Source: an uncultured Eubacteriales bacterium (GTDB lineage: Bacteria; Bacillota; Clostridia; Peptostreptococcales; Anaerovoracaceae). Taken from it: DNA of 64,000 bases. The position numbers were made by a program, and so were the translations under genes. The stretch's first letter is position 1. Every line of letters begins with the position of its first letter. The notes under the pieces were generated by a model. It worked only from the letters and a program-made list of their open reading frames with translations, had not been told where the DNA came from and made no database searches. The DNA lies in contig CADADV010000009.1 of assembly GCA_902786815.1 (NCBI GenBank), positions 50,680 to 114,679 on the forward strand. Direction: 5' to 3'. Shown here piece by piece: positions 486-26,343 of the stretch.

Positions 486-679
486 GTATCACGATTTAGG
501 ACAGGAACAAGCAAATGGTGATAGTTTTACCGATAAACGCCTGCTCCTGAGGGGTTCTGATGAAAAAAGTATCACGATTTCAGCTGCTTGAAGCCAAATC
601 GTGATACATATTTTTCTGATGAGCTGATTATTGAGGAAAAGTATCACGATTCCCCATGAAATGAGGCGAATAGTGGTAT
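486..679. repeat. Array of three 39-bp palindromic units (family 1, GTATCACGATTT)
   Basis: Three units start at 486, 569 and 641. Each begins GTATCACGATTT (11 of 12 in the third) and ends 39 bp later with its inverse AAATCGTGATAC. The middle unit (569-607) is a perfect 12-bp inverted repeat around a 15-bp centre. The right arms of units 1 and 3 are degenerate (AAATGGTGATAG and GAATAGTGGTAT). Start spacings are 83 and 72 bp. The array fills the gap between the nupQ-like stop and addB. Confidence 0.85.
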
Positions 680-2809: not shown

Positions 2810-2810
2810 A

Positions 2811-5864: not shown

Positions 5865-5897
5865 CGCCAACTTCTACAGCACTACCACTAGAGTCAT

Positions 5898-5964: not shown

Positions 5965-6082
5965 TTTTATAAAATTCGCATGGCTTGTGGATTGTTTCTC
6001 GCCTGTACACAACATATTGTGCTTTTGCTGCTTTGTTGATGCTGCGTGCGTGGTCCGATGACACTCCGCCTGCCACGTTTTG

Positions 6083-9561: not shown

Positions 9562-10347
9562 TCATACGAGGAAAGTCTGGATCAGCTGATCGATCTGCGC
9601 AGTATTAAAAGGATTCATCGCGGTTTCATATGTTACGATCAGATTCTTTCCTATGATGATGCCATTCTTCGCATATGTGTTGAGCTTGAACATGTTGTCT
9701 TCAAGATAGTCCGGGTCGTCGAGCAAGCCAAAATGCTCCCAGAAAAATGTCTTTCGCCTGCGGAGATTCAGAATGCAAAAGTCAGGATAAAACACATGTC
9801 TGCCAAGAATCAATGGCGTTTCAAATTGATAGACGAGCTGGTCCATGTAAAGGTGGTCTGCAATCAAAACCTCCGCTCGCGATCTGACTAGATCTCCTTT
9901 TTTCGTTTTCAGATCGGTTCTTGGCTTCCCCTCGGAACGCGGCGGATGTTCTCGTTTCCATTTCTCGATGAACTGCTCCTCCGTTAAGCGTATCGGATGT
10001 ACGAGCTTTTGTCTTTGCTGCGAAAGGTTGCCGAAGCAATCCTCCGCAGGAGACTTCTTACTATAGAAGTTCTGCGCGTGCCGCAATGCATTCAGCTCTG
10101 CCTTTGCGGAGGCGAGGACCTTTTGATCATATGATTTCTGTGCCAGCTCACGCGCAGTCACTATTTCACTCTTTGGCAAATAAATGCCGTCACTGTTAGC
10201 TTCCATCACCATATAATAGCGGTCTCCCCCTTTCCGGGCGTGGATCTTAAGCGCCCCTTCAGGTGCGCATGCTAACGCTTTTTCTTTCTCGGATATGATT
10301 CTCTCCAGCTCCTTTATTCTGTTGTTGATGTTATTCTCTAACCACAT
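9562..10347 (-). CDS. Uncharacterised PD-(D/E)XK-like protein (paralogue of the 25046 gene)
   Basis: This is a 261-residue protein with an N-terminal coiled-coil-like helix (about 5-30) and a small beta-rich module (GALKIHARKGGDRYYMVME, then ARELAQKSYDQKVL). The C-terminal part has the spacing of a PD-(D/E)XK nuclease: RSRAE (helix Glu), then YQFETPL, then YPDFCI (Asp), then FFWEHFGLL (Glu in the core strand). WEH in place of ExK is an atypical active site. The 25046-26050 product shares the same ordered blocks. Similar uncharacterised proteins are, to my recollection, common in gut Firmicutes. RBS GGGGGA precedes the ATG. A palindrome array lies about 345 bp upstream. Nuclease activity is an inference. 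Confidence 0.65.
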   Translation of the reverse strand: MWLENNINNRIKELERIISEKEKALACAPEGALKIHARKGGDRYYMVMEANSDGIYLPKSEIVTARELAQKSYDQKVLASAKAELNALRHAQNFYSKKSPAEDCFGNLSQQRQKLVHPIRLTEEQFIEKWKREHPPRSEGKPRTDLKTKKGDLVRSRAEVLIADHLYMDQLVYQFETPLILGRHVFYPDFCILNLRRRKTFFWEHFGLLDDPDYLEDNMFKLNTYAKNGIIIGKNLIVTYETAMNPFNTAQIDQLIQTFLV

Positions 10348-10691
10348 TTGTATCCCCCGTTTCTTCTTATGCCTGTAACTTTCAGCCTTACTATAAGACT
10401 ATAAACGCCGGTCTCATTGAGTTGTAATTATTTACATGAATACCATATTTTGTCATTTCTGTCAAGCGGTATCTTCCTCTGGCATGTGGATAACATCGCA
10501 CACAGCCTGCCGCCCAACGGCCGAGCCCCTCGCGAACGCTCGGCAGGGGCGTTGGTTGTGCACGAGTTACCCACAAGCCACCCTTTTGCTGCACTTGTTC
10601 TCTTGCGATGTGGCAATGAGCGCACTAGTGCAGTATCCCCGACGTTCACTCGACGTTCAGACTGCATTTTTTCTCTGATGCACTGGCGTTG
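10348..10691. other. Intergenic, no gene seen; one 38-bp palindromic element
   Basis: No reading frame here is convincing on either strand. At 10516-10553 a 38-bp element has AACG and CGTT at its ends and CCGAGC/GCTCGG arms inside, so it can fold as a hairpin. It could be a terminator-like or REP-like element, but no T-run follows. Confidence 0.5.
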
Positions 10692-10955
10692 TGTCCCGAT
10701 TCTCAGAAAATCAAAAAAGGGGCTACTGATTATCCTATGACAATCACCCCGAATTTGTTTTTCGGTAAATCAGGGCTACTTGTTCTGCTTCAACACACTT
10801 CAAGCACAAGCTTGATTGACCCTTAATTACGAAATACGATAACTGGGGCTAACCACCGTCTTGCGAAATCACCCCGAATCGCAGCAATTGCAAATCGGGG
10901 TAACTGAACTATAACAAACGATAGCCCCAAATGACGCTTATATAAAATCGGGGCA
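10692..10955. repeat. Array of five 34-bp palindromic units (family 2, CCCC...GGGGCTA)
   Basis: Units of exactly 34 bp start at 10692, 10745, 10818, 10870 and 10922. Each has a left arm like (G/C)ACCCCGAAT and a right arm like AATCGGGGCTA, with a divergent centre. The start spacings are 53, 73, 52 and 52 bp, close to 5 and 7 helical turns. The array lies upstream of the PD-(D/E)XK-like gene and downstream of the decarboxylase gene's terminator. Confidence 0.8.
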
Positions 10956-10973
10956 CATCCGCCAGGCAACAGG

Positions 10974-11104
10974 CGCTGGGGCGAATACAAACTGGTGCCG
11001 GGGCGGGCAGACGCTGGCGCTGAAACAGACATACGCCGGCGCTGGGACGGGCAGACGCTGGCGCTGGGGCGGATACAAGCTGGTGCCGGGGCGGCAGACG
11101 CTGG
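10974..11104. repeat. Tandem repeat, three GC-rich units of 44, 44 and 43 bp
   Basis: Units at 10974-11017, 11018-11061 and 11062-11104 share the tail GGGCAGACGCTGG. Units 1 and 3 are nearly identical and unit 2 is more diverged. The repeat begins 18 bp after the palindrome array. The minus-strand frame across it (Ala/Pro/Ser-rich) is a low-complexity artefact. Confidence 0.85.
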
Positions 11105-11156
11105 TGTCTGCAGTGGATCCAACTGCGCTGACAGCCACTGTGATGTGCGCAACGAA

Positions 11157-11187
11157 AAACCCGGCATCTGAGGGAATGTGCCGGGTT
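11157..11187 (-). terminator. Terminator of the decarboxylase beta-subunit gene
   Basis: AAACCCGGCA pairs with TGCCGGGTTT around a short loop and is followed on the minus strand by T residues. It begins about 55 bp past the stop codon at 11242. Confidence 0.85.
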
Positions 11188-11241
11188 TTCCTAGTGTATA
11201 AAAATGATTGTAGAGATTATCTCTGATTAATATGCACCTGA

Positions 11242-12408
11242 TTAATATGAACCATACATGCAGAGCATGACGCCGGCGGCTACACCGGAGCCGATAACGC
11301 CTGCGACGTTCGGTCCCATGGCGTGCATCAGCAGGAAGTTGGTTGGGTTCGCCTTTTGACCCTGTACCTGCGATACACGGGCTGCCATTGGTACGGCGGA
11401 TACACCTGCCGATCCAATGAGCGGATTGATTGGCGTCCTCGAGAAGACGTTCATGATCTTGGCGATAAGTACGCCGCCTGCTGTACCGAAGCAGAATGCC
11501 AGGACGCCGAGGATAACGATCTTGATCGTTGCCCAGGTCAGGAATGTTTCACCTGTTGCCGAAGCGCCTACGCAGGTACCGAGCAGGATAACGAGTATAT
11601 TCGAGAGAGCGTTCGAGGAGGTGTCGGACAGACGAGCTGTTCTGCCGCTTTCCTTGAACAGGTTGCCCATCATCAGCATACCGATCAGCGGTGCTACTGC
11701 CGGAAGCAGCAGAGCGATTACGATGGTAACTGCGATCGGGAACAGGATCTTTTCTCTCTGGGATACTGTTCTCAGCTGTTCCATCTTGAGCTCACGTTCA
11801 TGCTGCGTTGTCAGGGCTTTCATAATAGGCGGCTGTATGATCGGTACGAGGGCCATATACGAGTACGCCGCTACTGCGATCGGGCCTACCAAATGGTCTG
11901 CCAGTTTCGTTGTGAGGTAGATCGCTGTAGGACCGTCCGCTCCTCCGATGATGCCGATGGAACCGGCTTCCTGCGCATTGAATCCCAGTGCGATCGCTGA
12001 GAAGAATGCAAAGAAGATTCCCAGCTGGGCAGCCGCACCCATGAGCAGCGACTTCGGGTTCGCAATGAGCGGACCAAAGTCTGTCATAGCGCCTACGCCC
12101 AGGAAGATCAACGATGGCAAGACAGGTTTCAGCATATAGAATATGGAGAAAATACCTGCGTCCGCAAGTTCATTGGAGTTTACTACCCCCTCGTGGACAA
12201 CTTCGTTGATGAAGATCCCTGTCATCGGCAGGTTCGACAAAAGCATGCCGAATGCGATCGGAACCAGAAGCAAAGGCTCGAAGCCATGTCTGATTGCCAG
12301 ATACAGGAAGAACAGTGATACCACGATCATGATACCGCTCTGGTACGTGAAGTTTGCAACTCCAGTCGATTCCCAGAACCTAAGTAAAGTTTCGCCTACT
12401 GCATCCAT
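11242..12408 (-). CDS. Sodium-translocating decarboxylase, beta subunit (GcdB/OadB/MmdB family)
   Basis: This is a 388-residue polytopic membrane protein. Conserved family blocks are present: GVGAMTDFGPLIANP, then GFNAQEAGSIGIIGGADGPTAIY (the Asp-containing ion-binding region), and near the C-terminus NPLIGSAGVSAVPMAARVSQ and the closing NFLLMHAMGPNVAGVIGS. The beta subunit decarboxylates carboxybiotin and exports Na+. It is a single-gene unit with its own promoter and terminator. No biotin carrier, carboxyltransferase or gamma/delta subunit gene is nearby, so partners must be encoded elsewhere. Which acid (glutaconate, methylmalonate or oxaloacetate) is involved cannot be told from this subunit. 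Confidence 0.92.
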   Translation of the reverse strand: MDAVGETLLRFWESTGVANFTYQSGIMIVVSLFFLYLAIRHGFEPLLLVPIAFGMLLSNLPMTGIFINEVVHEGVVNSNELADAGIFSIFYMLKPVLPSLIFLGVGAMTDFGPLIANPKSLLMGAAAQLGIFFAFFSAIALGFNAQEAGSIGIIGGADGPTAIYLTTKLADHLVGPIAVAAYSYMALVPIIQPPIMKALTTQHERELKMEQLRTVSQREKILFPIAVTIVIALLLPAVAPLIGMLMMGNLFKESGRTARLSDTSSNALSNILVILLGTCVGASATGETFLTWATIKIVILGVLAFCFGTAGGVLIAKIMNVFSRTPINPLIGSAGVSAVPMAARVSQVQGQKANPTNFLLMHAMGPNVAGVIGSGVAAGVMLCMYGSY

Positions 12409-12495
12409 AAAATTAGCTCTCCTTTTTTATGCGATTCTGTGTGCGTTGCCTTTGCACGCAACACGACAAAGCGATGCTGGCGCATCACCGATAAA

Positions 12496-12524
12496 ATAGT
12501 AACACACTGCCCATTTTGATACAA
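12496..12524 (-). promoter_or_regulatory. Promoter of the decarboxylase beta-subunit gene
   Basis: TTGTAT (12524-12519), a 17-bp spacer and TACTAT (12501-12496) on the minus strand. The leader is about 80 nt and contains a small GTTGC/GCAAC hairpin. Confidence 0.6.
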
Positions 12525-12571
12525 GTTGTAATTTGATGTTTTACTCTCAAAATACTGTATACATTACATCA

Positions 12572-12606
12572 GGATATTTGATGGATACTTCGATGAATAC
12601 TTCGAT
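12572..12606. repeat. Short 12-bp tandem repeat after the ClC gene
   Basis: GGATATTTGAT, GGATACTTCGAT and GAATACTTCGAT lie head to tail directly past the ClC stop codon. ACATCAGGA also occurs on both sides (12566 and inside the ClC 3' end), suggesting a local duplication of the gene end. Confidence 0.7.
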
Positions 12607-12616
12607 GGATAGGATA

Positions 12617-13915
12617 CTACATCAGGAACTTCGATGCGGGCTTCAGGAATTGTCTCTGGACATCCTGCTCGCTGTACAGTCCCCCGCGGCCCGACAGGAA
12701 GTGGGCCATGCAGGCTGCGATGGCGAAGTACAGAGCCATCTCGCCGCTCAGGCAGATCGCCTCCAGGCCGTAGATAAAGACAGCGATCGGACAGTTGGTC
12801 ACGGATGCCAGCGCCCCGACGATCCCGATGGCAGCGGCCAGCGAGGGGTCCAGTCCGATCAGGCATCCGGCGGAGAAGCATCCGGTCGCCCCGATGAAGA
12901 TCATCGGCGCGATCTCGCCGCCCCGGATCCCGCAGCCCAGCGTAAACGCCGTCAGCATCAGTTTCCAGAGAAATGCCAGCATGGCGCTGTGTCCGTCCAG
13001 GGTCTCTTCCACATAGGAAAACCCGATGCCGTTGCAGTTCGTATGTCCCAGGATCTGCGTCAGCGCGATGACAAGGATCGCGCCGGTGATCACGCGCAGG
13101 TACTTATTCCCGACCGCTTCAAAACCCTTCGTGGTGATTTTGCGCACGAAGCAGTACAGTCTGCCGATGAGCATCGCCGCAAAAGCAATCGCGAGGACTT
13201 TGAGCAGGATACCGGGCGTGATGCCGGTGACCGTCAGATGCGCCGCAGCTTCGGCAGCGGACTGACTGCCCGCCTCCGTTTCGCCGCCTGTGAAATGACC
13301 GTGAAAATCGATATACGAAACGTCCGCGGCGCGGGCAATGCCCCACGTGATGAATGCCGTCATCAGCGTCGGTATCACATACACCCATTTCCGGTACTGC
13401 AAAACCAGCACCTCCACGCCGAATACCGCGCCGGCGAGAGGTGCGTTCAGGATCCCAGTGAAGCCCGCTGCGATGCCGCAGGCCAGCAGGAGCTCCGCCG
13501 GCGGCATGAGACGCCGCAGCGGCGCGAACTTTTCTCCTATAATGACGGCAAGCCCGCCGCCGATTTGCAGGGCCGATCCGACTCTGCCCACGGAGCCGCC
13601 TGTCAGATAAGCCAGGCACGTACTGACCGCGATCAGCGGCGCGATCCAGAATGAAAGCTTCCGCTCCCCGCGCATGTGCCGGAAGAGCGCATCCATGCAG
13701 AGGTCATCGTCCTTCCTGTACTCGTCGTAAAGGAGCACGACCAGAATGCCGGCCAGCGGCAGCGCGAAGATCAGCTTCTCGTGATCGTGGAACACGTTGT
13801 CGCACGTCATCGTCAGCCAACTGAAAAAAACGCAGGCGCCGCCGCAGACTATTCCGCAGCAGACGCCCGTCAGGATTCCTGTTATCAATTGTTTTGACCG
13901 GCTTTCCTGTGTCAT
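12617..13915 (-). CDS. ClC-family anion channel/transporter lacking the gating glutamate
   Basis: This is a 432-residue membrane protein of the voltage-gated chloride channel family. The second selectivity segment reads GGSVGRVGSALQIGG (residues 106-120), the equivalent of GREGP in exchangers, and Val112 replaces the gating Glu. The third segment is present as GCGIRGGEIAPMIFIGATG. The first GSGIP motif is not recognisable. In animal ClC-K channels the same position is Val and the proteins behave as channels. Exchange of Cl- or F- for H+ is therefore unlikely by the usual Glu pathway, though this is inference. The gene is the last of a minus-strand run corC-like, secA, prfB, clc, 30 bp after prfB. 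Confidence 0.85.
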   Translation of the reverse strand: MTQESRSKQLITGILTGVCCGIVCGGACVFFSWLTMTCDNVFHDHEKLIFALPLAGILVVLLYDEYRKDDDLCMDALFRHMRGERKLSFWIAPLIAVSTCLAYLTGGSVGRVGSALQIGGGLAVIIGEKFAPLRRLMPPAELLLACGIAAGFTGILNAPLAGAVFGVEVLVLQYRKWVYVIPTLMTAFITWGIARAADVSYIDFHGHFTGGETEAGSQSAAEAAAHLTVTGITPGILLKVLAIAFAAMLIGRLYCFVRKITTKGFEAVGNKYLRVITGAILVIALTQILGHTNCNGIGFSYVEETLDGHSAMLAFLWKLMLTAFTLGCGIRGGEIAPMIFIGATGCFSAGCLIGLDPSLAAAIGIVGALASVTNCPIAVFIYGLEAICLSGEMALYFAIAACMAHFLSGRGGLYSEQDVQRQFLKPASKFLM

Positions 13916-13945
13916 GTGTTTCGCCTTGAGTTGTTTCGCTTTAAG

Positions 13946-15043
13946 TTATTTCGCTTTGAGTTTCTCGTTGATGAAGTAGTCCAGGTCTCCGTCCATGACT
14001 GCCTGCACATTGCCGACTTCCGCGCCGGTCCGGTGGTCTTTGACCATGGTGTAGGGCTGGAAGACATAGGAGCGGATCTGGCTTCCCCAGGTGATCTGGT
14101 TGTAGTCGCCCTTCAGCTCGTTAAGCGATTCCTTCTCTTCTTTTTCTTTGAGTTCAATCAGCTTGGACATGAGCATCTTCATGGCGAACTCGCGGTTCTG
14201 GATCTGGGAGCGCTCGTTCTGGCACGTTACGACGATGTGGGTCGGAAGGTGCGTGATACGGACTGCGGAGTCTGTCATGTTGACGTGCTGTCCGCCGGCT
14301 CCGCTGGACCGGTAGGTGTCGATGCGCAGGTCTTCCGGATTGATCTCGACCGTCGTGTCGTATTCGATCTCCGGCGTCACATCCAGCGACGCGAATGAGG
14401 TGTGTCTGCGGGCGGAAGAGTCGAACGGCGAGATGCGCACCAGACGGTGCACGCCCTTCTCGTTCTTCAGGTAACCGTAAGCGTAATCGCCTTCGACAAA
14501 GACCGTCGCGCTCTTGATGCCGGCTTCTGTGTCATCGTTCATATCCATGATCTTCGCCTTGAAGCCCCGCTTCTCACACCAGCGCAGATACATACGCAAA
14601 AGCATCTCGGCCCAGTCCATGGCCTCGGTGCCGCCGCTGCCTGCGTGGATCGAAATGATGGCGTTGTTCTCGTCGTACTTCTCATTGAGGAGCGTCTTCA
14701 GCATCAGGTTTTCGAGGTCCTTCTCCAGAGTCTCCTTCTCGGATTTCGCCTCCAGCGCGGTCTCCTCGTCATCCATTTCCTCCGCCATCTCGATCATGAC
14801 CTTCAGGTCTTCCAGGGAGGTGTTCAGCCTGTCGAGCTCGCCCAGCTTGTCCTCGATGGACTTCTTTGACTTCATGACCTTCTGCGCCTTTTCCTGGTCT
14901 TCCCAGAAACCCGGCTGCATCGTCTGCTCATCCAGCTTCGCAAGTTCTTCCTTTAATGTATCCGTACCAAGCGCAGCATCCGCCTCCTCCAGCGAACGCT
15001 CCAGCTCCGGAATTTCCAACTTCAGTTCGTCTAACAGTATCAT
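13946..15043 (-). CDS. prfB: Peptide chain release factor 2
   Basis: RF2 is 365 residues here; it releases peptides at UGA and UAA. The catalytic GGQ is in SSGAGGQHVNMTDSAVRITH. An N-terminal helical domain (PGFWEDQEKAQKVMK) precedes the anticodon-recognition and peptidyl-hydrolase domains. In many bacteria an in-frame UGA near codon 25 forces a +1 frameshift that autoregulates RF2. Here the reading frame is continuous across that site (SLEEADAALGTDTLKEEL), so the mechanism is absent. The start is the ATG at 15043 preceded by AGGAGACATAG. secA ends 9 bp upstream, so the two are probably co-transcribed. Confidence 0.95.
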   Translation of the reverse strand: MILLDELKLEIPELERSLEEADAALGTDTLKEELAKLDEQTMQPGFWEDQEKAQKVMKSKKSIEDKLGELDRLNTSLEDLKVMIEMAEEMDDEETALEAKSEKETLEKDLENLMLKTLLNEKYDENNAIISIHAGSGGTEAMDWAEMLLRMYLRWCEKRGFKAKIMDMNDDTEAGIKSATVFVEGDYAYGYLKNEKGVHRLVRISPFDSSARRHTSFASLDVTPEIEYDTTVEINPEDLRIDTYRSSGAGGQHVNMTDSAVRITHLPTHIVVTCQNERSQIQNREFAMKMLMSKLIELKEKEEKESLNELKGDYNQITWGSQIRSYVFQPYTMVKDHRTGAEVGNVQAVMDGDLDYFINEKLKAK

Positions 15044-15052
15044 CTATGTCTC

Positions 15053-17872
15053 CTATACGTTCCTGCCGCAGCAGTGCTTGTACTTCTTCCCGCTTCCGCA
15101 TGGGCACGGGTCGTTGCGTCCTACCTTCGGTGTCTCGCGGCGCACGGTCTCCTGCTTGTGCTCCCGCTTCGGCACGGCTGCCTGCGCAGGGGCGCTGCCC
15201 ATGTCGACGTTTCCGCCGGCTGCCCTCTGGCGCGCGGCTTCTTCACGCATTTCGGAATCGTCGAACTCGTCCTTGTGCTCCTCGCCGCTTCCGATGACAT
15301 CACGACGTTCGCTGGACGTGGTGACGGTGACGTTGTAGCAGTAGCGGACGAACTCTTCCTGGATCGCGGAAATCATCAGCTCGAACATGGCGAAGCCTTC
15401 GTGTGCGTAAGCTGCTGCAGGATCCTGACCGCCCAGTCCTCTGAGGCCGATACCGCTCTTCATCTGATCCATGGCGTCGATGTGATCCATCCACTTGCTG
15501 TCGACGACACGCAGCAGGATCATACGCTCTACTTCACGGAGACGGTCAACGCCGATTTCTTCTTCCTTCTCGTCGTACATGTCGCTGAACTCGCCGTAGA
15601 GACCGTTCTTCAGGGACTCTTCATCCATGTTCGCCAGGTCTTCCGCGTCGAACTCCAGCGGATCGAAATGTCCGGTGATCTTGGCCAGTCCTTCGTTCAT
15701 CGTATCGAAGTCCCATTCCTCCGGATACTTGGATGCAATGACGATCGGGTCCACGACTTCATCGATGAATTTGCGAACCATCATATCCAGGTCTTCACGC
15801 AGGTCCTCTCCAAAGAGGACTTTCTTACGCTCGTTGTAGATGATCTCACGCTGCTTGTTCATGACGTTGTCGTACTGGAGGACGTACTTTCTGATTCCGA
15901 AGTTCCTGCCCTCCACCTTCTTCTGCGCGTTCTCGATCTGCTTGGAGACCATGCCGGATTCGATGGCCTCGTCTTCCTCGACGCCCAGTTTGCGGACGAT
16001 GTTCTGCATCCGCTCGCCGCCGAAGAGACGCATCAGTTCGTCTTCCATGGAGACGCAGAACTGTGTCTGGCCCGGGTCTCCCTGACGACCGGAACGACCA
16101 CGCAGCTGGTTGTCGATACGTCTCGATTCATGACGCTCGGTACCAATAATGCAAAGGCCTCCCAGCGCGCGTACGCGTTCCTGTTCGGGCGCACGCTCTG
16201 CCTTGTATTTTTCGAGGAGTCCCTGGAAGGTCTTTCTGGCTTCCAGCAGCTCCGGATCGTCGCTCTGCACGAAGCTTGTTGCAAAGGCGATCTGGTCCTC
16301 GTCGTATTCCAGTTCTTCCATCTCCCTGCGGGCCTGGAACTCGGGGTTTCCGCCCAGGATGATGTCGGTACCACGGCCGGCCATGTTGGTGGCGATGGTG
16401 ATGGCGCCTTCACGACCTGCTTCCGCGACGATCTGCGCTTCCTTCTCATGATGCTTCGCGTTCAGTACGTTGAAGTCCTTCACGCCGCGCTTTCTCAGCG
16501 CGTCCGCGATGATCTCGGATTTCTCGATGGAGATTGTGCCGACCAGGACCGGCTGGCCCTTTTCGTGAGCTTCGATAACGCGGTCGATGATGGCTTTGTA
16601 TTTGCCTTTTTCTGTTGCGTAGACGGCGTCCGCCAGGTCTTCTCTGATGACTGGTTTGTTCGTCGGGATGACCACGACGTCCATGTTGTAGATGTCGGTG
16701 AACTCGGCTTCTTCTGTCTTTGCAGTACCCGTCATACCGGCGAGTTTCTGATACATTCTGAAGTAGTTCTGCAGGGTGATCGTCGCCAGGGTCTTGCTCT
16801 CGGAGCGCACCAGAACGCGTTCCTTGGCCTCGATGGCCTGGTGGAGTCCGTCGCTGTAGCGACGCCCGAACATCATACGTCCGGTGAACTCGTCGACGAT
16901 GATGATCTCGCCGTCGCGGACCACGTAGTCAACGTCCCGCTTCATCATGTAGCGGGCTTTCAGAGCCTGCATGACGTGGTGGTTGATTTCCATATTCTCA
17001 GGGTCGGAGAAGTTGTCGATCTTGAAGAAGTCTTCGCACTTGGCCACGCCTTCTTCTGTCAGCGAGATCTGGTTGTCCTTTTCCTCGACTACGAAGTCGC
17101 CTGTTTCAACTTTCGTGTCTTTGTCACGGGTGCCCTTCGTGAGGGTGGTGACGAAGGAGTCGGCTCTGCGGTACATGTCCGTGGACTTGTCGCCGCGGCC
17201 GGAAATGATCAGCGGCGTTCTGGCTTCGTCGATGAGGATGGAGTCGACCTCGTCGACGATAGCGTAGTTGAGTTCACGCTGCATCATCTGCTCTTTGTAG
17301 GTGACCATGTTGTCACGCAGATAGTCGAAACCGTACTCGTTGTTCGTGCCGTATGTGATGTCCGCCTGGTAAGCGGCTCTTCTCTCCTCTTCTGTGATGC
17401 CGTGGATGACGCATCCGACCGACAGTCCCAGGAAGGTGTAGAGTTTGCCCATCCACTCCATGTCACGCTTGGCCAGGTAATCGTTGACCGTGACTACGTG
17501 GACGCCTTTGCCTGAGAGGGCGTTCAGATACGCCGGCAGCGTCGCCACGAGGGTCTTACCTTCACCAGTCTTCATCTCGGAGATCCTGCCCTGATGCAGG
17601 ACGATTCCGCCGATGACCTGTACATAGAAGTGCTTCATCCCCAGGCTTCTCCACGCGCCTTCACGGCATACTGCAAAAGCCTCCGGCAGGATGTCGTCCA
17701 GGCTTTCGCCTCCTGCGATCCTCTCCTTGAACTCTTCTGTCTTGGCACGAAGTTCCGCGTCGGAGAGCGCCTCCATCTCGGCCTCGTGCGCCATGACCTT
17801 GTCTGCAATTTTCGATACTTTCTTGACTTCCTTTTCATTCAGGTCGCCAAAGATTTTCTCCATAAAACCCAT
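15053..17872 (-). CDS. secA: Preprotein translocase ATPase SecA
   Basis: SecA is 939 residues here and drives Sec export through SecYEG. Walker A is [17 protein letters not shown] (about residue 100), followed by [16 protein letters not shown] and the DEAD-like [19 protein letters not shown]. The helicase C half has [17 protein letters not shown], then [26 protein letters not shown]. The C-terminus carries the zinc-binding SecB/ribosome-binding motif [14 protein letters not shown] after a variable linker. The start codon overlaps the stop of the corC-like gene (TAATG at 17870-17874). The length is slightly above the common 840-900. Confidence 0.98.
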
Positions 17873-19167: not shown

Positions 19168-19282
19168 CTAAATACATCCCTCCTGTCAAGGTTGTTTGTT
19201 TCACTGGTACATACATAATTAGTATATAACAAAATGACGCATATTGCGAGAGATATATAATAGAAGTCCGGCAGTCTTTGCT

Positions 19283-19320
19283 GCACACAAAAACCCGGGG
19301 GTGGGTCCGGGTCTTTGTGC
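19283..19320 (-). terminator. Hairpin with T-rich arm upstream of the corC-like gene
   Basis: GCACaCAAAaACCCGG pairs imperfectly with CCGGGTcTTTGtGC. Read on the minus strand it lies 116 bp ahead of the corC-like start, where it could terminate a short upstream transcript or act as an attenuator. No T-run follows outside the stem, so its strength is uncertain. Confidence 0.5.
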
Positions 19321-19454
19321 CTATTCTGCAGGAAAGCAAGAATGAAGGGGTATATATGGTTAGGCTGGTACTGCATAGAGCGCAGCCGTCCTGCCTCCCC
19401 CTGCCATTACATGAATGACGGTTATATGATATGCGCGGAGGATCGATACAACAA

Positions 19455-19517
19455 TCGGGAGAAAGTACTAATAGAAGTACCAATCCCGAGGACTAGTACC
19501 AAAGTGCTAGACCCCGG
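19455..19517. other. Two mutually exclusive inverted repeats in the 19168-19566 intergenic region
   Basis: TCGGGA (19455) pairs with TCCCGA (19484), with GTAC/GTAC inside. The same CCCG (19485-19488) can instead pair with CGGG near 19514-19517, with CTAG/CTAG inside. The rest of the intergenic stretch (19330-19454) shows a GGCTG/CAGCC hairpin but no gene. I do not recognise a known riboswitch class. Confidence 0.4.
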
Positions 19518-19541
19518 GATCGGCTTAAAACTAATAAAAAT

Positions 19542-19558
19542 GAACCCTTTCCAGGTTC
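19542..19558 (-). terminator. Terminator of the LuxR-family gene
   Basis: On the minus strand GAACC and GGGTTC pair around TGGAAA, followed by ATTTTTATT. It begins 8 bp after the stop codon at 19567. Confidence 0.75.
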
Positions 19559-19566
19559 CTGATTCT

Positions 19567-20595
19567 TTAATCTCCGCTTACAATGCGGATGGCTTCTATT
19601 CTGTTTTTGACTTCCAGTTTTCTGAAGATGTTGTAGATGTGGGTCTTGACCGTGCTTTCGGACAGGAACAGGATCTCAGCAATGTCTTTGTTGCTTTTGC
19701 CTTGGCAGATGAGCTCCGTGACCTCCCGCTCACGCCGCGTGAGATTGTACCGGTCGGCAACTTCGCTCAATCGTTTTTCGAAATCTGTCAGAACCGTTTG
19801 CAGCGGCACTCCCGCTCCCGGCGGAGAAACTGTCTCAAGCGGAGAAGCTGCTTCCGGCGGAGATGCATCATCCGGCGGCGCTGCATCCGGCGGAGAAGCT
19901 GCGAAGGTCGGTTTGAAGCAGTTGTGGTAGACAAAGGACGCCGTCAGCACACTGATGATCATCCAGAACAGGATCGTCAGGTCCAGAGGCTCCCGAACGA
20001 ACTGGCCGTTGCCCCAGCAGGCGGACGCCCCGCCCCAGAAATAGGAAAAGTAGTTCCACACGAGCATTGCCGTTGTGACCGTCATATAGGACACGCTTTT
20101 CTTCACATCGGAAACGGACGCATAGATGATATGGGCCACAGATGAGGCAAGGAAGCTGATTACCAGCACTGCATCGCCGGCAAGAAAAATCCACTTGATG
20201 GTACAAAGCTGACCCATGGGAACAACGAAAGAGATGAGGAGCCATGCTGCAGCGTAGGCGAGCATATATCCTCCAACCATCTTATCGAGAGAATGGATCG
20301 CTTCCCGGTCGAGGATCTGCTTTTGCAGTCTGAGCCACAGGAACATGGTGATCGCGATCAGACTGTTTCCGATCCGCATCACCTCCATGCAGCTGAACAG
20401 CGCTACGACATAGTTGCAGTAATAGAGCCCCATGTCATAGAAGCATATCACCATCAACCCAATCAGAAAAACAACAACTGCTTTATTGACCTCAGTCTTC
20501 CTGTGGAGATGGCTCAGCACTCCACAGGTAAGACCTGCCGCAATTCCTGCAAAGCAAAAAATGTAGCAGGCCATAATGATTTCGTGAATATACAT
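19567..20595 (-). CDS. Membrane-anchored LuxR-family transcriptional regulator
   Basis: This is a 342-residue protein with about seven hydrophobic segments in residues 1-235, a Pro/Ala-rich linker (about 240-270, repeated SPPxA units), then a LuxR-type helix-turn-helix (LTRREREVTELICQGKSNKDIAEILFLSESTVKTHIYNI). The architecture is an integral-membrane sensor fused directly to a DNA-binding domain, with no receiver domain. Targets cannot be inferred. The ATG at 20595 has GGAGG upstream. It follows lysC by 70 bp on the same strand. The linker DNA is itself a short repeat (TCCGGCGGAGAAGCTGC-like units, 19805-19910) and may vary in length. Confidence 0.85.
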   Translation of the reverse strand: MYIHEIIMACYIFCFAGIAAGLTCGVLSHLHRKTEVNKAVVVFLIGLMVICFYDMGLYYCNYVVALFSCMEVMRIGNSLIAITMFLWLRLQKQILDREAIHSLDKMVGGYMLAYAAAWLLISFVVPMGQLCTIKWIFLAGDAVLVISFLASSVAHIIYASVSDVKKSVSYMTVTTAMLVWNYFSYFWGGASACWGNGQFVREPLDLTILFWMIISVLTASFVYHNCFKPTFAASPPDAAPPDDASPPEAASPLETVSPPGAGVPLQTVLTDFEKRLSEVADRYNLTRREREVTELICQGKSNKDIAEILFLSESTVKTHIYNIFRKLEVKNRIEAIRIVSGD

Positions 20596-20665
20596 TAATT
20601 GAACCTCCTGGTCCCACCCCTTATGTGCCGGCACATGCAGCCGGCTTTTGCTGTCAAGCGTGCGT

Positions 20666-21982
20666 TTATTCTACGAACGCCCCATAGATTGCTTTGATCG
20701 CAGTCTCGAAGTCTTTCTCTTCGACGCCTACGATGATGTTCATTTCAGATGATCCCTGGTCGATCATCCTGATGTTGACGCCTGCATCCGCAAGCGCTGT
20801 GAACAGTCTGGCGGATGTACCCATACGGGCTGACATGCCTGCGCCTACTGTCGCGATGAGGGTCATGTCGCTGGCCACGTCGATGCTGTCCGGTTTCAGC
20901 TGGATCTTGATCTCTTCGATGATCTCTTCCAGTTTGTTGCCCAGAAGCTTGCTGTCGATGACGACGGACATCGTATCGATACCGGTCGGCAGGTGCTCGA
21001 TGGTCAGGTCATTGTCCTCGATGATGCCGGCCAGCTTCCGGATGAAGCCCTTCTCGTTGGCCAGGTGGTTTTTATAAATACCGATGACGGTAAAGTGTTT
21101 TCTTCCTGCGATACCGGAAATGATCTGATCCTCGCTGATGTCCGGATCCGCTGTGATCATCGTGCCCGGATCCTTCGGCCGGTTCGTGTTGCGGATGTTG
21201 ATCGGGATGCCTTCTGCTTTTGCAGGGAAGATGGCTTCCTCATGGAGTACAGACGCGCCCATGTAGGAAAGCTCACGCAATTCCATGTAGGAGATCTTCT
21301 CGATCGGTTTCGGATCCTTTACGATCCGCGGATCCGCCATGAGGAATCCGGAAACGTCCGTCCAGTTCTCGTAGACGTCCGCGCCCGTCGCTCTGGCGAC
21401 CAGCGCCCCCGTGATGTCGGAGCCGCCTCTGGAGAAGGTCTTGATCGTTCCATCCTCGAGCTTCTCGCCGTAGAATCCCGGGATGACTGCCGTCTCATGC
21501 TTCCGGAGGACCTTGGCGATCAGTTCGTTGGTCGTATCCTCCAGGAACTTGCCTTTGTCACTGAATTTGATGATGCTCTGCGCGTCCACAAAATCAAAGC
21601 CCAGATAAGCAGCGATGATCTTTGCATTGAGGTATTCCCCGCGGCTGGCAATGTAGTCGACGCTCGCGCCGTCTTCGATGTTCTTCTTGATCTTTCGCAG
21701 TTCTGCCTTGATGTCCACATCGACGCCCAGGTCTGCCTCAACAGCCATGAACCTGTCGTAGATCACCTGGAAGATCTGCTCATAAGGGATCCTGTGCTCG
21801 ATGTGCGTCTTGCAAAGATACAGCAGGTCGGTGACTTTGCTGTCATCTGCGTAGCGTTTCCCCGGTGCAGACACGATAACGTATTTGATCGCATCGTCGG
21901 ATTTGACGATGTCTCTGAGTTTTCTGATCTGAATAGCGTCAGCGACAGATGAGCCGCCGAACTTGGCTACTTTGATTCCCAT
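20666..21982 (-). CDS. Aspartate kinase
   Basis: This is a 438-residue monofunctional aspartokinase, catalysing the first step of the lysine/threonine/methionine pathway. The N-terminal kinase motif is VAKFGGSSVADA (residues 4-15). FSRGGSDITGALVARATGADVYENWTDVSG is the nucleotide/aspartate site. Two ACT domains follow (about 300-438; LIATVGAGMSARMGTSARLF and IRMIDQGSSEMNIIVGVEE), implying feedback control by an amino acid. The AMP-like insertion and overall length match the lysC/thrA kinase type of Clostridia. It lies 102 bp downstream of metK, with a 15-bp minisatellite in the gap. Confidence 0.93.
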   Translation of the reverse strand: MGIKVAKFGGSSVADAIQIRKLRDIVKSDDAIKYVIVSAPGKRYADDSKVTDLLYLCKTHIEHRIPYEQIFQVIYDRFMAVEADLGVDVDIKAELRKIKKNIEDGASVDYIASRGEYLNAKIIAAYLGFDFVDAQSIIKFSDKGKFLEDTTNELIAKVLRKHETAVIPGFYGEKLEDGTIKTFSRGGSDITGALVARATGADVYENWTDVSGFLMADPRIVKDPKPIEKISYMELRELSYMGASVLHEEAIFPAKAEGIPINIRNTNRPKDPGTMITADPDISEDQIISGIAGRKHFTVIGIYKNHLANEKGFIRKLAGIIEDNDLTIEHLPTGIDTMSVVIDSKLLGNKLEEIIEEIKIQLKPDSIDVASDMTLIATVGAGMSARMGTSARLFTALADAGVNIRMIDQGSSEMNIIVGVEEKDFETAIKAIYGAFVE

Positions 21983-22008
21983 TGGTTTCTTGTTATTCTC
22001 CTTTATTG

Positions 22009-22083
22009 TTTGTACTGTTTTTGTTTGTACTAATTATGTTTGTATTGATTATGTTTGTACTGTTTTTGCTTGTGCTGATTTTG
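22009..22083. repeat. Five tandem 15-bp repeats between metK and the aspartate kinase gene
   Basis: Units at 22009, 22024, 22039, 22054 and 22069 are variants of TTTGTACTGTTTTTG. Units 1 and 4 are identical. The array ends one base before the metK stop codon. Confidence 0.9.
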
Positions 22084-22084
22084 C

Positions 22085-23251
22085 TTATACCGGAAGATAT
22101 AATTCCTCTTTGAGTTCTTCCACCTTGTCGAGTTTCTCCCACGGGAGATAGATATCCGTCCTGCCGAAGTGACCGTATGCGGCTACCTGTCTGTAGATCG
22201 GCTTCCGCAGATCCAGGTCGCGGATGATCGCCGATGGTCTCAGGTCGAAATGCTTCTCAACGATCTCTGCCAGCTTCTCATCCGGGAACACACCTGTCCC
22301 GAAGGAATCCACCATGATGGATACCGGCTTGGCAATGCCGATGGCGTACGCAACCTGCACTTCGCACTTGTCCGCCAGCCCCGCTGCGACCATGTTCTTG
22401 GCCACCCATCTGGCTGCGTAAGTCGCGCTTCTGTCCACCTTCGTCGGGTCTTTGCCGCTGAAAGCGCCGCCGCCGTGATGCGCGTATCCGCCGTAAGTAT
22501 CGACGATGATCTTGCGTCCGGTCAGTCCCGAGTCACCCTGCGGTCCGCCGATGACGAACTTGCCGGTCGGGTTGACGAAGTACTTTGTATCCTCATCCAG
22601 AAGTTCAGCCGGGATGATCGGTTTGATGACATGCTCCATCAGATCTTTTTTGATCTGCTCCTGGGTCGCGTTCGGGTTGTGCTGTGTTGAAATGAGGACC
22701 GTGTCGACTCTCTTGACTTTGTCATCATCGTACTCGACGGTGACCTGGGTCTTGCCGTCCGGTCTCAGGTAATCGAGGGTCCCGTTCTTTCTGACCTCGG
22801 TCAGTCTTCTGGCCAGCTTGTGCGCCAGCGAGATCGGCATCGGCATCAGCTCCGGCGTCTCATTACATGCAAAACCAAACATGAGGCCCTGGTCTCCTGC
22901 GCCGATATCATGCTCGGAATTGGTGCTCTCGTTGACGCCCAGCGCGATATCCGGAGACTGCTCGTCGATGGATGTCATGATCGCGCAGGAATATCCGTCG
23001 AAACCGTACTTGGCTCTGTCGTATCCGATATCCACGATGACGCTTCTGGCGATCTTCGGGATGTCTACATAACAATCCGTCGTGATCTCTCCCATGATCA
23101 TGGCGTATCCTGTATTGACCGTTGTCTCCGCAGCGACTCTGCCGACCGGATCCTGCTCCAGGATCGCGTCAACGATCGCATCGGAAATCTGATCGCATAT
23201 CTTATCCGGATGTCCTTCCGTTACAGATTCTGATGTGAATAATCTCTTCAT
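22085..23251 (-). CDS. metK: S-adenosylmethionine synthetase
   Basis: This 388-residue enzyme makes SAM from methionine and ATP. Signature elements are [17 protein letters not shown] at the N-terminus, [16 protein letters not shown], and the glycine-rich P-loop-like [18 protein letters not shown]-type block (read here as [20 protein letters not shown]). The length is typical. It has its own extended -10 promoter, and no SAM riboswitch is visible in the roughly 85-nt leader. Its promoter lies back to back with that of the 23376 gene. Confidence 0.97.
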
Positions 23252-23333
23252 ATTTGACTCCTTTTTTCATCTGCCCTGCGTGCGCCTTGTGTGCGCCCTG
23301 CGTGCGTTTCCCTTCTGAACCGCACACATAGTT

Positions 23334-23344
23334 ATTATAGCACA
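23334..23344 (-). promoter_or_regulatory. Extended -10 promoter of metK
   Basis: TG-TGC-TATAAT context on the minus strand (TATAAT at 23339-23334), with a weak TTGAAG upstream at an unsuitable 12-bp spacing. It is divergent from, and only about 20 bp away from, the promoter of the 23376 gene. Confidence 0.55.
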
Positions 23345-23360
23345 TAATCTGCTTCAAATG

Positions 23361-23369
23361 TGTTATACT
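23361..23369 (+). promoter_or_regulatory. Extended -10 promoter giving an apparently leaderless transcript
   Basis: TG-T-TATACT with TATACT at 23364-23369, followed by only six bases before the ATG at 23376. The predicted transcription start coincides with the start codon, and no Shine-Dalgarno sequence exists. Confidence 0.55.
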
Positions 23370-23375
23370 TCTCAT

Positions 23376-24632
23376 ATGAAAAAACAAACTTCTGACCATC
23401 CAGACAAGTTAATAAACGGCAGCGGCGAACCGGAAGCCGCGCAGCACGGATTCACCCTCCTGGAAGGTGGCCTTTGCTCCAGCATACCGGATTCCAAAAA
23501 GCGGTTTGCTTCCGCATACGTGACGAACACGCGCCTCATGGGCGTGCTGGCGCTCTACGCCCACTGGACCGTCGCCGGCGGCGGCGACATCCACCAGTTC
23601 TTTTATATTGACTGCGAGGAAACAGGACTCGAATCCTGCAAAGTCTATCGCGGCGACTGGAACATGGAAATGCAGATGGCAGAGCAGGCTCTCGTCGGGG
23701 GACTCGGCGCGCAGAAAATCCCGATTACCGTGAACGTGTTCCGGTGGATTTTGCAGCAGTGGAGAGACTTTAATATAGAGCACGGACTCCCGCTGCCCCG
23801 CAACAAAAGCGACTACGAGTTCATCTTCGACAAAACGGCGAAGCTCTCTGCGTCTGAGCAGGCTGAGCTCATGGACCAGATCTGCGGTGCGATCACCAGC
23901 GACTACCAGGTCGTGAACTATTTCCTCATGCGCTGTTTCGGTCAGGACCACGAGGGCGCGGCATATGTCGCAGCAGAAGACGTCCCCCTCGACATCTTTT
24001 CCAATTACCACCGGACAACCTTCTGCAAAAACATCATCGACCCGTCTGACCGTCGTTTCGCCGGACCCCCTGAGAAACGGCCTCACGAATACATCTGTGA
24101 GTCCCTGGTGGAAACCGACGGCATCTATGAGACGATCATCACCCGGATCATTGTCATGGATCTCAAGGTGGTCGATTTCGAATACTGCAACAAAGCCCCT
24201 GTCACGCAGACAGAGGCTGCCATTCTGCTGCGAAAAACAGAGTATGCGACCGTATACGAATTCTTCATGGAAGATGAGGACATCGAAGAGAACCTCGGTG
24301 AGTTCGTGCTCAACATGAACACCGTCATGACCAGGCATCCGAACGGCCGCCTCTTCATGGCCTTCAAACCGACCAACGCCCACGTGGACGAGCGCGTCTT
24401 CATGCTCAGCAACGACGTCAAAGGCGTCTACTTCCTGTCCGACTACGGACAGCTGATCGTCTGCGCCTATTCTCCCGAGGATATCCTTGAACTCGAGGAA
24501 GACCTGGCGGCCGGCCCGCTCAGCCCCTTCCTCATCATCACCGGCAAGTACGAACTGCTGAACCCGGTGTTGTTTGAATTCATCAACAGCGACTACACAG
24601 ACTTCCAGGCCTTCATCAGCCCCGTGGAGTAG
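23376..24632 (+). CDS. Uncharacterised 418-residue protein
   Basis: I do not recognise this family. The protein is soluble, acidic, with no signal peptide or membrane segment. It begins MKKQTSDHPDK; I prefer this ATG to an in-frame one 18 bases upstream because that one would sit inside the -10 element. Visible traits are a Trp/Tyr-rich N-terminal region (LYAHWTVAGGGDIHQFFYIDCEE), a central WILQQWRDFNIEHGLPLPRNK, and a C-terminal half with alternating strands (ATVYEFFMEDEDIEENL; GRLFMAFKPTNAHVDERVF; LIITGKYELLNPVLF). Codon use looks like that of neighbouring core genes, so it is probably resident rather than newly acquired. It stands alone on the plus strand. Confidence 0.75.
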   Translation: MKKQTSDHPDKLINGSGEPEAAQHGFTLLEGGLCSSIPDSKKRFASAYVTNTRLMGVLALYAHWTVAGGGDIHQFFYIDCEETGLESCKVYRGDWNMEMQMAEQALVGGLGAQKIPITVNVFRWILQQWRDFNIEHGLPLPRNKSDYEFIFDKTAKLSASEQAELMDQICGAITSDYQVVNYFLMRCFGQDHEGAAYVAAEDVPLDIFSNYHRTTFCKNIIDPSDRRFAGPPEKRPHEYICESLVETDGIYETIITRIIVMDLKVVDFEYCNKAPVTQTEAAILLRKTEYATVYEFFMEDEDIEENLGEFVLNMNTVMTRHPNGRLFMAFKPTNAHVDERVFMLSNDVKGVYFLSDYGQLIVCAYSPEDILELEEDLAAGPLSPFLIITGKYELLNPVLFEFINSDYTDFQAFISPVE

Positions 24633-24692
24633 GACGAACGCGGGCTGACGGCGCGAGTGGGTCCACAGTTGTGCGGCCCCGCGAGCGGATGA

Positions 24693-24948
24693 CCGCAGCT
24701 TTTCCTGGTTTTGCACCTGATTTCTGCGGGATTCCAACTGCTGAGCCAGTGCCGCGAGCAGATGACCGCAGGTTTTCCTGGTTTTGCACCTGATTTCTGC
24801 GGGATCTCAACTGCTGAGCCGGTACCGCGAGCGGATGACCGCAGGTTTTCCTGGTTTTGCACCTAATTTCTGCGGCGGTTTGCTCGCGGGGGAAGTCCAC
24901 ACCTCTCATTCCCACAGATTTTGATATGTTTTTGCTATATTTCTGCGG
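24693..24948. repeat. Array of four 37-bp palindromic units at 73-bp period (family 3, CCGCAG...CTGCGG), upstream copy
   Basis: Units at 24693-24729, 24766-24802, 24839-24875 and 24912-24948, each 37 bp, start CCGCAG (CCACAG in the fourth) and end ATTTCTGCGG. The period is exactly 73 bp throughout, leaving 36-bp gaps. Gaps 1 and 2 are near-identical and gap 3 differs. The array fills the space between the 23376 gene and the promoter region of the 25046 gene. Confidence 0.9.
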
Positions 24949-25045
24949 CGTTCCGCTCGCGGGGCTTGACATATCTCCCCATTTGTTGCAATATATTGTC
25001 ATAGTTACCATTTATTGTAAGTAGCATGATTGGGAGAGAGATATA

Positions 25046-26050
25046 ATGCCTGAAGTAACTGCCTTGAACAGAATCTTAGCACAGTCTTTTAACAGGTCGA
25101 TTATAATCGCGTTGCAGAATCCACCTGACGCGAAAGCTTCGGCTGCTAGAATTCAACGTATCATCAATAGTCTGCCGAAGGGAAAATTGTATTCTTCGAA
25201 CCACGGCAGTAACGTGTCGTTTTACACTATGCAGGATGGACATCAGAAGTATATGTCACAGCGATCCAACAATACACATGCGTTGGCTCGAAAGTCATAT
25301 CTTATGTTGCTGCAGGAGATTCTTGAATTGACCGATTCAGATCGGCCGGCTGATATTCTGCGAAGGGATACTCTCATTGCCAAACTTCAGAAACTTATTC
25401 TTTCATTTGAACGCGGCAATTTGAACCTTGCCCGAATCGTACTGACAAGCGAACAATACAAATGGTTCACCCGCTCTTTTGTTCAGAAAAAAATCGATCC
25501 ATCAAAAGCACACCAAGCAGCGTGCGGTTTATTTGTTCGTTCCAACTCGGAAAAAGAGATTATCAATACTTCCGAAGATCTGGCGCTGCCTTTGCATTAT
25601 GAGGAGAAGCAAACCATTTATGTATTTCCCTTGGTTCAAAAGCTTCGGGATGAGCTTGTTAGCGAGGGCTTTCTCCGCGAAGATGCCAAAGTCGAACAAT
25701 TATTTGATTTTCGCAAAGGCATTACAACTTGGAATGTTCCTTCTGAGTTTCAGTGGATGAATACTCATGGGTCTATCTGGAAATCATACTTTCCGCCGAA
25801 AGGAACAATTGTGATTTACAATGATTTCAAGATCATGCTGGCAGACGGAACGATATTCATATGGGAACATGAAGGTCTGATGGATTTTTTCATATACAGG
25901 TGCAACGCGACGGAACGTATTACTGTAATGAAAACCACCCACACTGTTGACAAAGAAAACATATTAGAAACTTATCAGGATGAGGTTGATTCACCTGAAA
26001 AGTTGATTGATATCATCACGAAATACATATTGCCGCGTTTGTGGTTCTAG
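25046..26050 (+). CDS. Uncharacterised PD-(D/E)XK-like protein flanked by palindrome arrays
   Basis: This is a 334-residue protein homologous in layout to the 9562-10347 product. The shared ordered blocks are an N-terminal helix, then GKLYSSNHGSNVSFYTMQ with LARKSYLMLLQEI, then VRSNSEKEI (helix Glu), LPLHYEEKQ, YNDFKIM (Asp) and FIWEHEGLM (Glu). It carries an insertion of about 40 residues between the Glu helix and the Asp strand, and an extra C-terminal stretch after WEH. The AT-rich coding sequence differs from the GC-rich flanks. RBS GGGAGAGAG precedes the ATG. Arrays of the same 37-bp palindrome lie on both sides, in the same orientation except for the last unit. A nuclease or DNA-binding role is inferred only. 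Confidence 0.65.
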   Translation: MPEVTALNRILAQSFNRSIIIALQNPPDAKASAARIQRIINSLPKGKLYSSNHGSNVSFYTMQDGHQKYMSQRSNNTHALARKSYLMLLQEILELTDSDRPADILRRDTLIAKLQKLILSFERGNLNLARIVLTSEQYKWFTRSFVQKKIDPSKAHQAACGLFVRSNSEKEIINTSEDLALPLHYEEKQTIYVFPLVQKLRDELVSEGFLREDAKVEQLFDFRKGITTWNVPSEFQWMNTHGSIWKSYFPPKGTIVIYNDFKIMLADGTIFIWEHEGLMDFFIYRCNATERITVMKTTHTVDKENILETYQDEVDSPEKLIDIITKYILPRLWF

Positions 26051-26056
26051 GGAGTC

Positions 26057-26160
26057 GCCGGCGAGCGGGTGACTGTTGTGAGTGGCTGGCGGGCATCGGG
26101 GCCGGCGAGCGGGTGACCGTTGTAAGTGGCTGGCTGGCATCGGGGCCGGCGAGCGAACGG
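26057..26160. repeat. 44-bp tandem repeat, two copies plus a partial
   Basis: Copies begin at 26057, 26101 and 26145 with GCCGGCGAGCG. Each full unit contains GTGGCTGGC and GGCATCGGG. The partial third copy runs straight into the first downstream palindrome unit. Confidence 0.85.
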
Positions 26161-26343
26161 CCGCAGATTTTGCCCGATTATTGCTGTATTTCTGCGGGAT
26201 TTCAGTTGCTGAGCCGACACCATGAACGGGCGACCGCAGACTTTTCCCGATTATTGCTGTATTTCTGCGGGATACCAGCCACTGTAAGGAGCAAACTCCT
26301 GCAATCCCGCAGAAATAAGGGGTCAAAGATAAAAAAACTGCGG
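26161..26343. repeat. Array of three 37-bp palindromic units at 73-bp period (family 3), downstream copy
   Basis: Units at 26161-26197, 26234-26270 and 26307-26343 share CCGCAG...CTGCGG ends with the upstream array. The third unit is inverted (CCGCAGAAAT start). The period is again exactly 73 bp, with 36-bp gaps. The first gap resembles gaps 1 and 2 of the upstream array (GTTGCTGAGCCG). The remainder to 26443 holds only short direct repeats (GAACAGACAGCCGC twice) and a GC-rich inverted repeat next to the purL stop. Confidence 0.9.

Follow-up and report, generated by a model that had tools for sequence, protein, structure and literature searches.

Two genes, A and B, in a 64,000-nucleotide stretch from an uncultured Eubacteriales bacterium (the window; C9:50680-114679 of its own genome, a 2.2-Mb draft assembly) encode members of one family of stand-alone two-domain proteins, in which a variable domain at the N terminus is joined to a PD-(D/E)XK-like one at the C terminus, and both lie beside arrays of inverted-repeat units. 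These nuclease-like genes, together with their own palindromes, look like a new kind of gene-and-repeat system. Cognate recognition of its own array by each protein is strongly supported by comparison of sequences between loci, in which the half-site of the array changes along with the N-terminal domain. Loci are coded L, genomes G (the own genome being G000) and contigs of the own genome C.

Genes A and B belong to one family of nuclease-like proteins

Gene A (9562..10347, minus strand) encodes 261 amino acids (aa), in which an N-terminal helix, three strands and a long helix precede the C-terminal PD-(D/E)XK-like domain (E159, D189, E204, H205, K221). Gene B (25046..26050, plus strand) encodes 334 aa, with a predicted N-terminal specificity domain at ~aa 1-155 and the nuclease-like domain at ~aa 160-334 (D260, E274, H275), limits that are approximate and were set by alignment and model. 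The ordered blocks RSxxE, P/NDF and WEH, which an earlier note on this DNA had described as common to both proteins, are borne out by BLASTP (E = 1e-4, 30% over 60 aa), and a 14-row profile, built with A and B included, recovers both. Five family genes were found in the own genome (A, B, C14:58871, C9:46290 and C2:117247), and none has an internal stop. Relatives were detected in 46 of the 49 genomes of the genus (E ≤ 1e-5), with a maximum of 15 matches per genome; among named genomes, the best 80 of 391 relatives bear titles mostly of Lachnospiraceae, Mogibacterium and unplaced Bacillota/Clostridiales, and one of Treponema. Of 299 genomes sampled evenly across the phylum, 13 were matched by the profile, with full-length stand-alone forms in the own genome and in G190, G270 and G294 (these three being of one family); the remaining nine matches were partial, eight of them inside open frames of at least 419 residues.

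Pfam and NCBIfam contain no family for A or B, and no match came near a curated cut-off. The C-terminal domain matches the PADLOC candidate PDC-S68 (E = 4.9e-25 for A and 1.3e-4 for B). AlphaFold2 models of A (predicted local distance difference test [pLDDT] 95.5, predicted template modelling score [pTM] 0.79) and B (pLDDT 95.7, pTM 0.90) are confident, and in that of A the N-terminal helix, three strands and a 36-residue helix are followed by a nuclease-like domain of the order helix-strands-helix-strand-helix. In topology, the N-terminal part of A may resemble integrase arm-binding domains. Foldseek returned no E value below 0.001 for either model; the matches of A were weak ones to restriction enzymes (best MunI, E = 0.025), and B matched TnsA at E = 1.1, amid unrelated folds. 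For work on the domains, genes below 230 aa and duplicates were dropped, which left 148. Across 89 sequences, E159, D189 and H205 are conserved in 89 and E204 in 88, and position 221 is a lysine or an arginine in all 89 (split 68 and 21). The acidic and basic positions typical of the PD-(D/E)XK superfamily are thus conserved, and the AlphaFold2 secondary structure agrees with a restriction-like fold, for which Foldseek gave the weak matches above; DNA cleavage by these proteins is putative.

Arrays lie beside family genes and are rare beside unrelated genes

Gene B is bracketed by 37-bp CCGCAG..CTGCGG units with a 73-bp period, as the earlier note had claimed: four in the left array (24693..24948; units at 24693, 24766, 24839 and 24912, the last with one mismatch) and three in the right array (26161..26343; units at 26161, 26234 and 26307), of which the first two are, by eye, oriented as in the left array. 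For gene A, an upstream array of five 34-bp units had been described. An irregular inverted-repeat array does exist there (10718..10970, half-site AATCGGGG; limits from detector positions and by eye), but not in that clean form: the detector gives three 29-bp units of the type CCCCGAAT..ATCGGGG (~10747-10775, 10872-10900 and 10925-10953), 428, 553 and 606 bp before the start codon. GC-rich direct repeats (GGCGCTGGGGCGG..) follow immediately past this array, at 10972-11094.

Arrays were sought within 1 kb of each gene by a detector without knowledge of motifs, which looks for inverted 8-mer pairs of one outer length (28-46 bp) with a common half-site; this range was fixed after the first arrays were known, and the first trial was on 40 of the loci. 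The scan for family genes had yielded 175 genes in 204 loci. Dropping genes below 150 aa and duplicates left 158 distinct genes, and the array counts rest on the 149 with at least 1200 bp of flank. At least three units were detected beside 87 of these, two beside 33 and one beside 29. Shuffled flanks (n = 632) had one unit in 584 cases, two in 48 and never more; chance is therefore an unlikely source of the arrays. Control flanks of HAD genes (29 of 30 loci, L202 being excluded as the neighbour of gene A) had one unit in 26 cases, two in 2 and four in 1; one of the 29 (L227, one unit) itself carries a family gene. The exceptional control, L209 in G003, contains up to five CTTTTATGA-like units with a 74-bp period and is probably a gene-less copy, since it resembles the array of family gene L165 in the same genome. 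Homologues do carry nearby arrays, among them seven of eight genes that only a later search brought up and that are 33-45% identical to the nearest earlier gene, and arrays are rare beside unrelated genes (1/29 HAD loci and 1/25 rplM loci without a detected family gene, the latter for the upstream 1.5 kb only). Neither of the two refuting conditions named in the earlier note, homologues lacking nearby arrays and arrays equally common beside unrelated genes, was therefore borne out.

Of the 87 array-bearing genes, 53 have their units upstream, 23 have them downstream and 11 have them on both sides. Four of the five own-genome paralogues reach at least three detected units (B 7, C14 6, C9:46290 5, A 3); the fifth, C2:117247 (L002), has one, as do its relatives L158 and L191. 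By the detector, this subfamily lacks a standard array; 5′ of the L002 gene there is instead a large inverted repeat centred round GTATTCCTATAGGAATAC. None of nine long or fragmentary relatives has three units, but with their incomplete flanks they are a weak negative control.

The half-site follows the N-terminal domain

That protein variant and palindrome covary, each paralogue recognising its own palindrome, had been proposed in the earlier note and is supported by 83 loci with at least three units (3403 pairs, which are mutually dependent): half-site similarity tracks the N-domain and not the nuclease. Half-sites were alike (at least 5 of 8) in 21/21 pairs with N-domain identity of at least 0.6, in 7/9 pairs at 0.5-0.6, and in 13-28% below. 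Among the 65 pairs whose C-domains have an identity of 0.65 or more, half-site similarity had a partial rank correlation of 0.71 with the N-domain when C was held fixed and of -0.23 with the C-domain when N was held fixed, and none of 500 label shuffles equalled the observed correlation. Linkage contributes to this covariation, because N-domain and upstream array adjoin.

Exchange of both parts is visible at a syntenic locus of G034 (L156) and G010 (L160), where the flanks are 94.9% identical over 962 bp and, on the other side, 87.4% identical over 1980 bp, a side that takes in most of the 3′ part of the gene. The C-domains are 98% identical and the N-domains 50%, and the half-site is AAGTACAAAA in L156 and AACCAC/GTGGTT in L160. 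G010 has 6% listed contamination and carries two rplM genes (C34, C17), so its bin may mix two species; the same contrast is also visible with G006 (L161), which is like L160. L080 and L128 show the same pattern (C 95%, N 43%), and there are others. Between L005 and L166, whose proteins are 60% identical, the half-sites differ and the five-unit plan is the same (41-73-51-41 versus the mirrored 40-51-72-40).

Array geometry points to recognition of duplex DNA

The half-site varies in sequence between family members, and the geometry is common to them. Half-site centres are 29.0 ± 2.9 bp apart (53 arrays with at least four units), and the distances between units cluster at 40-43, 51-54, 61-66, 72-74, 83-86 and 92-96 bp and beyond. 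A period of 10.35-10.4 bp fits them best, with R = 0.82 (153 spacings, 87 loci), compared with a maximum of 0.28 in 300 sets of random spacings, and R is still 0.79 after removal of the 50-55 class. With spacings phased at ~10.4 bp, units tend to face the same side of the duplex. In L091, L103, L115 and L116, 7-19 units follow a nearly strict period of 51-53 bp and have interiors that are closely alike, as would be seen if arrays expanded and became homogenised.

Changes in the half-site mostly affect one arm: 65 one-arm versus 7 complementary two-arm changes in 55 GTACAAGA units, and 317 versus 22 in arrays with at least four units. Arm pairing is therefore not the conserved property, which supports recognition of duplex DNA over that of a hairpin. 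Given these uncompensated changes, and given that no array of the window matches Rfam at the gathering score, a reading of the arrays as RNA or hairpins was rejected as very improbable.

Gene-less arrays are dispersed over the genome

The earlier note had also listed array families without an adjacent gene in the window; these are present, and their cognate genes were found elsewhere, on C14 and at C9:46290. The array at 487..678, of the TATCACGAT family (the same as the TATCACGA family), has three units at 487, 570 and 642, spaced 83/72 bp, and its cognate gene is G000:C14:58871-59845. Two arrays belong to the GTACAAGA family, whose cognate gene (G000:C9:46290-47189) lies left of the window: one at 54833..55075, with five units 41/51/73/41 bp apart, and one at approximately 63614..63856, with five units 41/73/51/41 bp apart, the position of the first, degenerate unit being converted from locus L136.

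Throughout the own genome, GTACAAGA units occupy eleven sites, every one with the plan 41-73-51-41 or its mirror and one adjoining the cognate gene; on C26 there is a sixth unit, a twelfth site is hinted at (C5:201.9 kb), and in the C3 and C1 arrays one degenerate unit each was placed by position, outside the search hits. The 83/72 plan of TATCACGA is repeated on C2, C3 and C9 (the window array) and beside the gene on C14, with partial sets of two units on C5 and one each on C23 and C36. CCGCAG arrays with a 73/73 plan lie at C14:64674 and C26:22464, from a noisier search (39 matches versus 10 for the control). In all three array families, the spacing found beside the cognate gene thus recurs in the gene-less arrays. 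Half-sites are 86% and interiors 40% identical in seven diverged GTACAAGA arrays, and 95 and 82% in five alike copies; for the three gene-less TATCACGA arrays the values are 93 and 54%, and 82 and 43% when the two C14 arrays are added, one unit of the right C14 array being one base out of register. There is some bias in this comparison, because the arrays were found by half-site.

Among the 49 genomes of the genus, G000 has 43 GTACAAGA units and each of its 48 congeners has 0-3 (controls 0-4); for TATCACGA, the counts are 19 units in G000, 9 in G010 (which has the gene), 15 in G045 and 0-3 in the others.

Presence, absence and inheritance

The interval between atpC and rplM contains array, gene and array in G000 and G010, a relative (64% identical) with a different array in G037, a shortened gene with an array in G003, and an array with no gene detected in G033. 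The gene-less array of G033 (L272, 5′ of rplM) has the half-site TTTTGACGAA and 83/73 spacing, as also occurs in the TATCACGA family. In G005, G006, G021 and G034, the atp terminator is directly followed by the rplM promoter; in G007, the two are separated by ~70 bp, including a 27-bp stretch that is 85% like G000 sequence beside the gene and is perhaps a remnant. To judge from the remnants in G003 and, perhaps, in G007, some loss has probably occurred at this locus. G000 has a B-type array at C5:190.7 kb that G045 lacks, with flanks in G045 that are 88-95% identical; this difference, like those between atpC and rplM, may reflect gain or loss, and the comparison covers part of the 68%-complete G045 assembly. 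The same gene-less CCGCAG array of G000 is split by an IS256/Mutator-family element (PF00872, E = 2e-114; L249 ~2100-3560; G000:C5:190.8-192.3 kb), for which it apparently served as a landing site. Recent transposition was considered for L154/L155 in G014 and ruled out by 99.8% identity across the whole overlap including the flanks; the pair is probably an assembly duplicate.

Discussion

The reading that we favour, with roughly even confidence, is that of cognate protein-DNA pairs with a REPtron-like lifestyle, an unrelated enzyme and recognition of duplex DNA, in which the nuclease would cut or nick the array and repair would spread arrays. The variable N-terminal domain would bind one specific half-site of 8-10 bp, an inverted pair of half-sites, about three helical turns apart, would accommodate two subunits (presumably a dimer), and several units on one helix face would give rise to a higher-order protein-DNA complex. 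Positioned on the array, the PD-(D/E)XK-like domain might nick or break the DNA there in a regulated way, after which the array might be copied or moved by repair or recombination of the host. The arrays would then be the cis-acting component of an element, selfish or domesticated, that lives like a REPtron, and arrays without a gene would be its non-autonomous or solo copies. A bolder proposal, to which we give somewhat less than an even chance, is that many Lachnospiraceae, and Clostridia related to them, contain a new class of genetic element: one PD-(D/E)XK protein, whose recognition domain can be exchanged, would spread helically phased arrays of its own palindrome with no transposase of the HUH, DDE or recombinase type involved. 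A literature search, which covered neither bioRxiv preprints nor most subscription journals, found no description of a PD-(D/E)XK family that has palindrome arrays as partners.

These pairs provide a testable DNA target for many so far uncharacterised genes of gut Clostridia (one scan found 391 relatives). Because most genes adjoin their own predicted binding sequence, the rules of recognition should be learnable by comparison, and the natural swaps of recognition domain and site are ready-made experiments. Should the nuclease move the arrays, bacterial repeats would have a new route of spread; should it not, the pairs would be a large new family of phased DNA-binding systems.

REPtrons, that is, RAYT/TnpAREP genes with their repetitive extragenic palindromes (REPs), likewise comprise one gene beside its own palindromes, dispersed extragenic copies without the gene, and co-evolution of protein and repeat, which the covariation data indicate here too. 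Unlike REPtrons, the family has no HUH/Y1 transposase (Pfam Y1 transposase gave no match at E ≤ 1 for A and B or at E ≤ 0.1 for seven homologues) and conserves the residues RSxxE..D..EH; its half-sites are ~29 bp apart with variable, non-pairing interiors and helically phased units; and it occurs in Clostridia. Passages of a 2010 RAYT paper place the homologues only after the branching of the gammaproteobacteria (PMC2817692). Tn7 TnsA shares the PD-(D/E)XK nuclease fold, but the similarity is weak (Pfam PF08722, E = 0.015 for one homologue, and the Foldseek value for B). The ends of Tn7, like the arrays here, contain several protein sites.

Several points weigh against the favoured reading. 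Pairing, geometry, phasing, covariation, dispersal and presence or absence are read from the sequences, as is the support for recognition; cleavage and movement of the arrays are what we infer beyond these. One imperfect direct repeat of ~13 bp, seen by eye at a single site, is all that might be a target-site duplication. In most of 17 close pairs, the alignment extends into the flanks, as for orthologues at the same locus, so that the genes look vertically inherited. Differing also from REPtrons, the C14 flanking arrays are direct and not inverted repeats, and units lie on both sides in only the 11 of 87 genes mentioned above. The canonical lysine position of (D/E)xK, two past E204, is leucine or phenylalanine in 72/89 sequences, for which reason K/R221 may be a migrated catalytic base. 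In gene-less copies, half-sites are kept while interiors diverge, beyond what is expected of dead transposon relics. The TATCACGA arrays of G045 have no cognate gene detected in that incomplete assembly, which either runs counter to strict co-occurrence of gene and array or reflects an assembly gap. Finally, over the 926 pairs with a C-domain identity of at least 0.4, the partial correlations were 0.08 and 0.02, near zero because unrelated half-sites dominate.

The main rival is a host system for regulation or nucleoid organisation, in which proteins bound to phased arrays would fold the DNA or adjust transcription nearby, with the nuclease-like domain used for dimerisation or rare cutting and the arrays kept site by site by host selection. 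It would account for the conserved half-sites at gene-less sites, both in the three TATCACGAT copies and in the seven diverged GTACAAGA arrays, for the strict helical phasing, for gene-less arrays with near-identical interiors common to the own genome, G045 and G010, and for the location of 20 inspected array stretches, mostly between the longest open frames (four overlap a frame; the frame map is crude). It sits badly with array families that differ among congeners, four orthogonal specificities side by side in the own genome, arrays downstream as well as upstream of the gene, and conserved nuclease residues, and we consider it unlikely, though to be taken seriously.

Defence, or distinction of self from non-self, by a restriction-like nuclease with exchangeable specificity, for which the host arrays act as sink, brake or sensor, appears rather improbable. 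The C-terminal domain is homologous to that of the PADLOC candidates PDC-S68, N-domains are exchanged while the nuclease stays constant, and copy number varies between genomes. Type I restriction systems, too, exchange specificity with a constant nuclease; unlike these, the family consists of a single polypeptide, and its sites are arrays in the host's own genome, that is, in the chromosome that a restriction enzyme would cut. The PDC-S68 profiles have ~1200 positions, whereas family proteins are mostly 250-350 aa long, have a specificity domain at the N terminus and are accompanied by arrays, and none of the 175 genes encodes more than 420 aa. In one profile scan of viral contigs, no relative was found.

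That the arrays act as hairpins in RNA or single-stranded DNA (terminators, structured RNA or REP-type hairpins), and not as duplex protein sites, is very improbable: inverted repeats can fold, and true REPs are described in one paper as being recognised as single-stranded hairpins (PMC8266576), but the uncompensated arm changes, the helical phasing with near-fixed unit length, and the lack of Rfam matches among the window arrays speak for duplex DNA. Chance adjacency to miniature elements of an unrelated transposase, which the dispersal of the arrays, the inverted ends of some and the IS256-type element inside one might suggest, is scarcely credible in view of the control loci, the shuffles, the covariation and half-sites that change from gene to gene.

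Other features of the window

Between an aspartokinase-like and an S-adenosylmethionine synthetase-like gene (names read from translations), 15-bp tandem repeats (TGTTTGTAC..) occupy positions 21992-22089. The sole Rfam match of the window at the gathering score is a purine riboswitch at 5883-5982 on the minus strand (RF00167, 45.2 bits).

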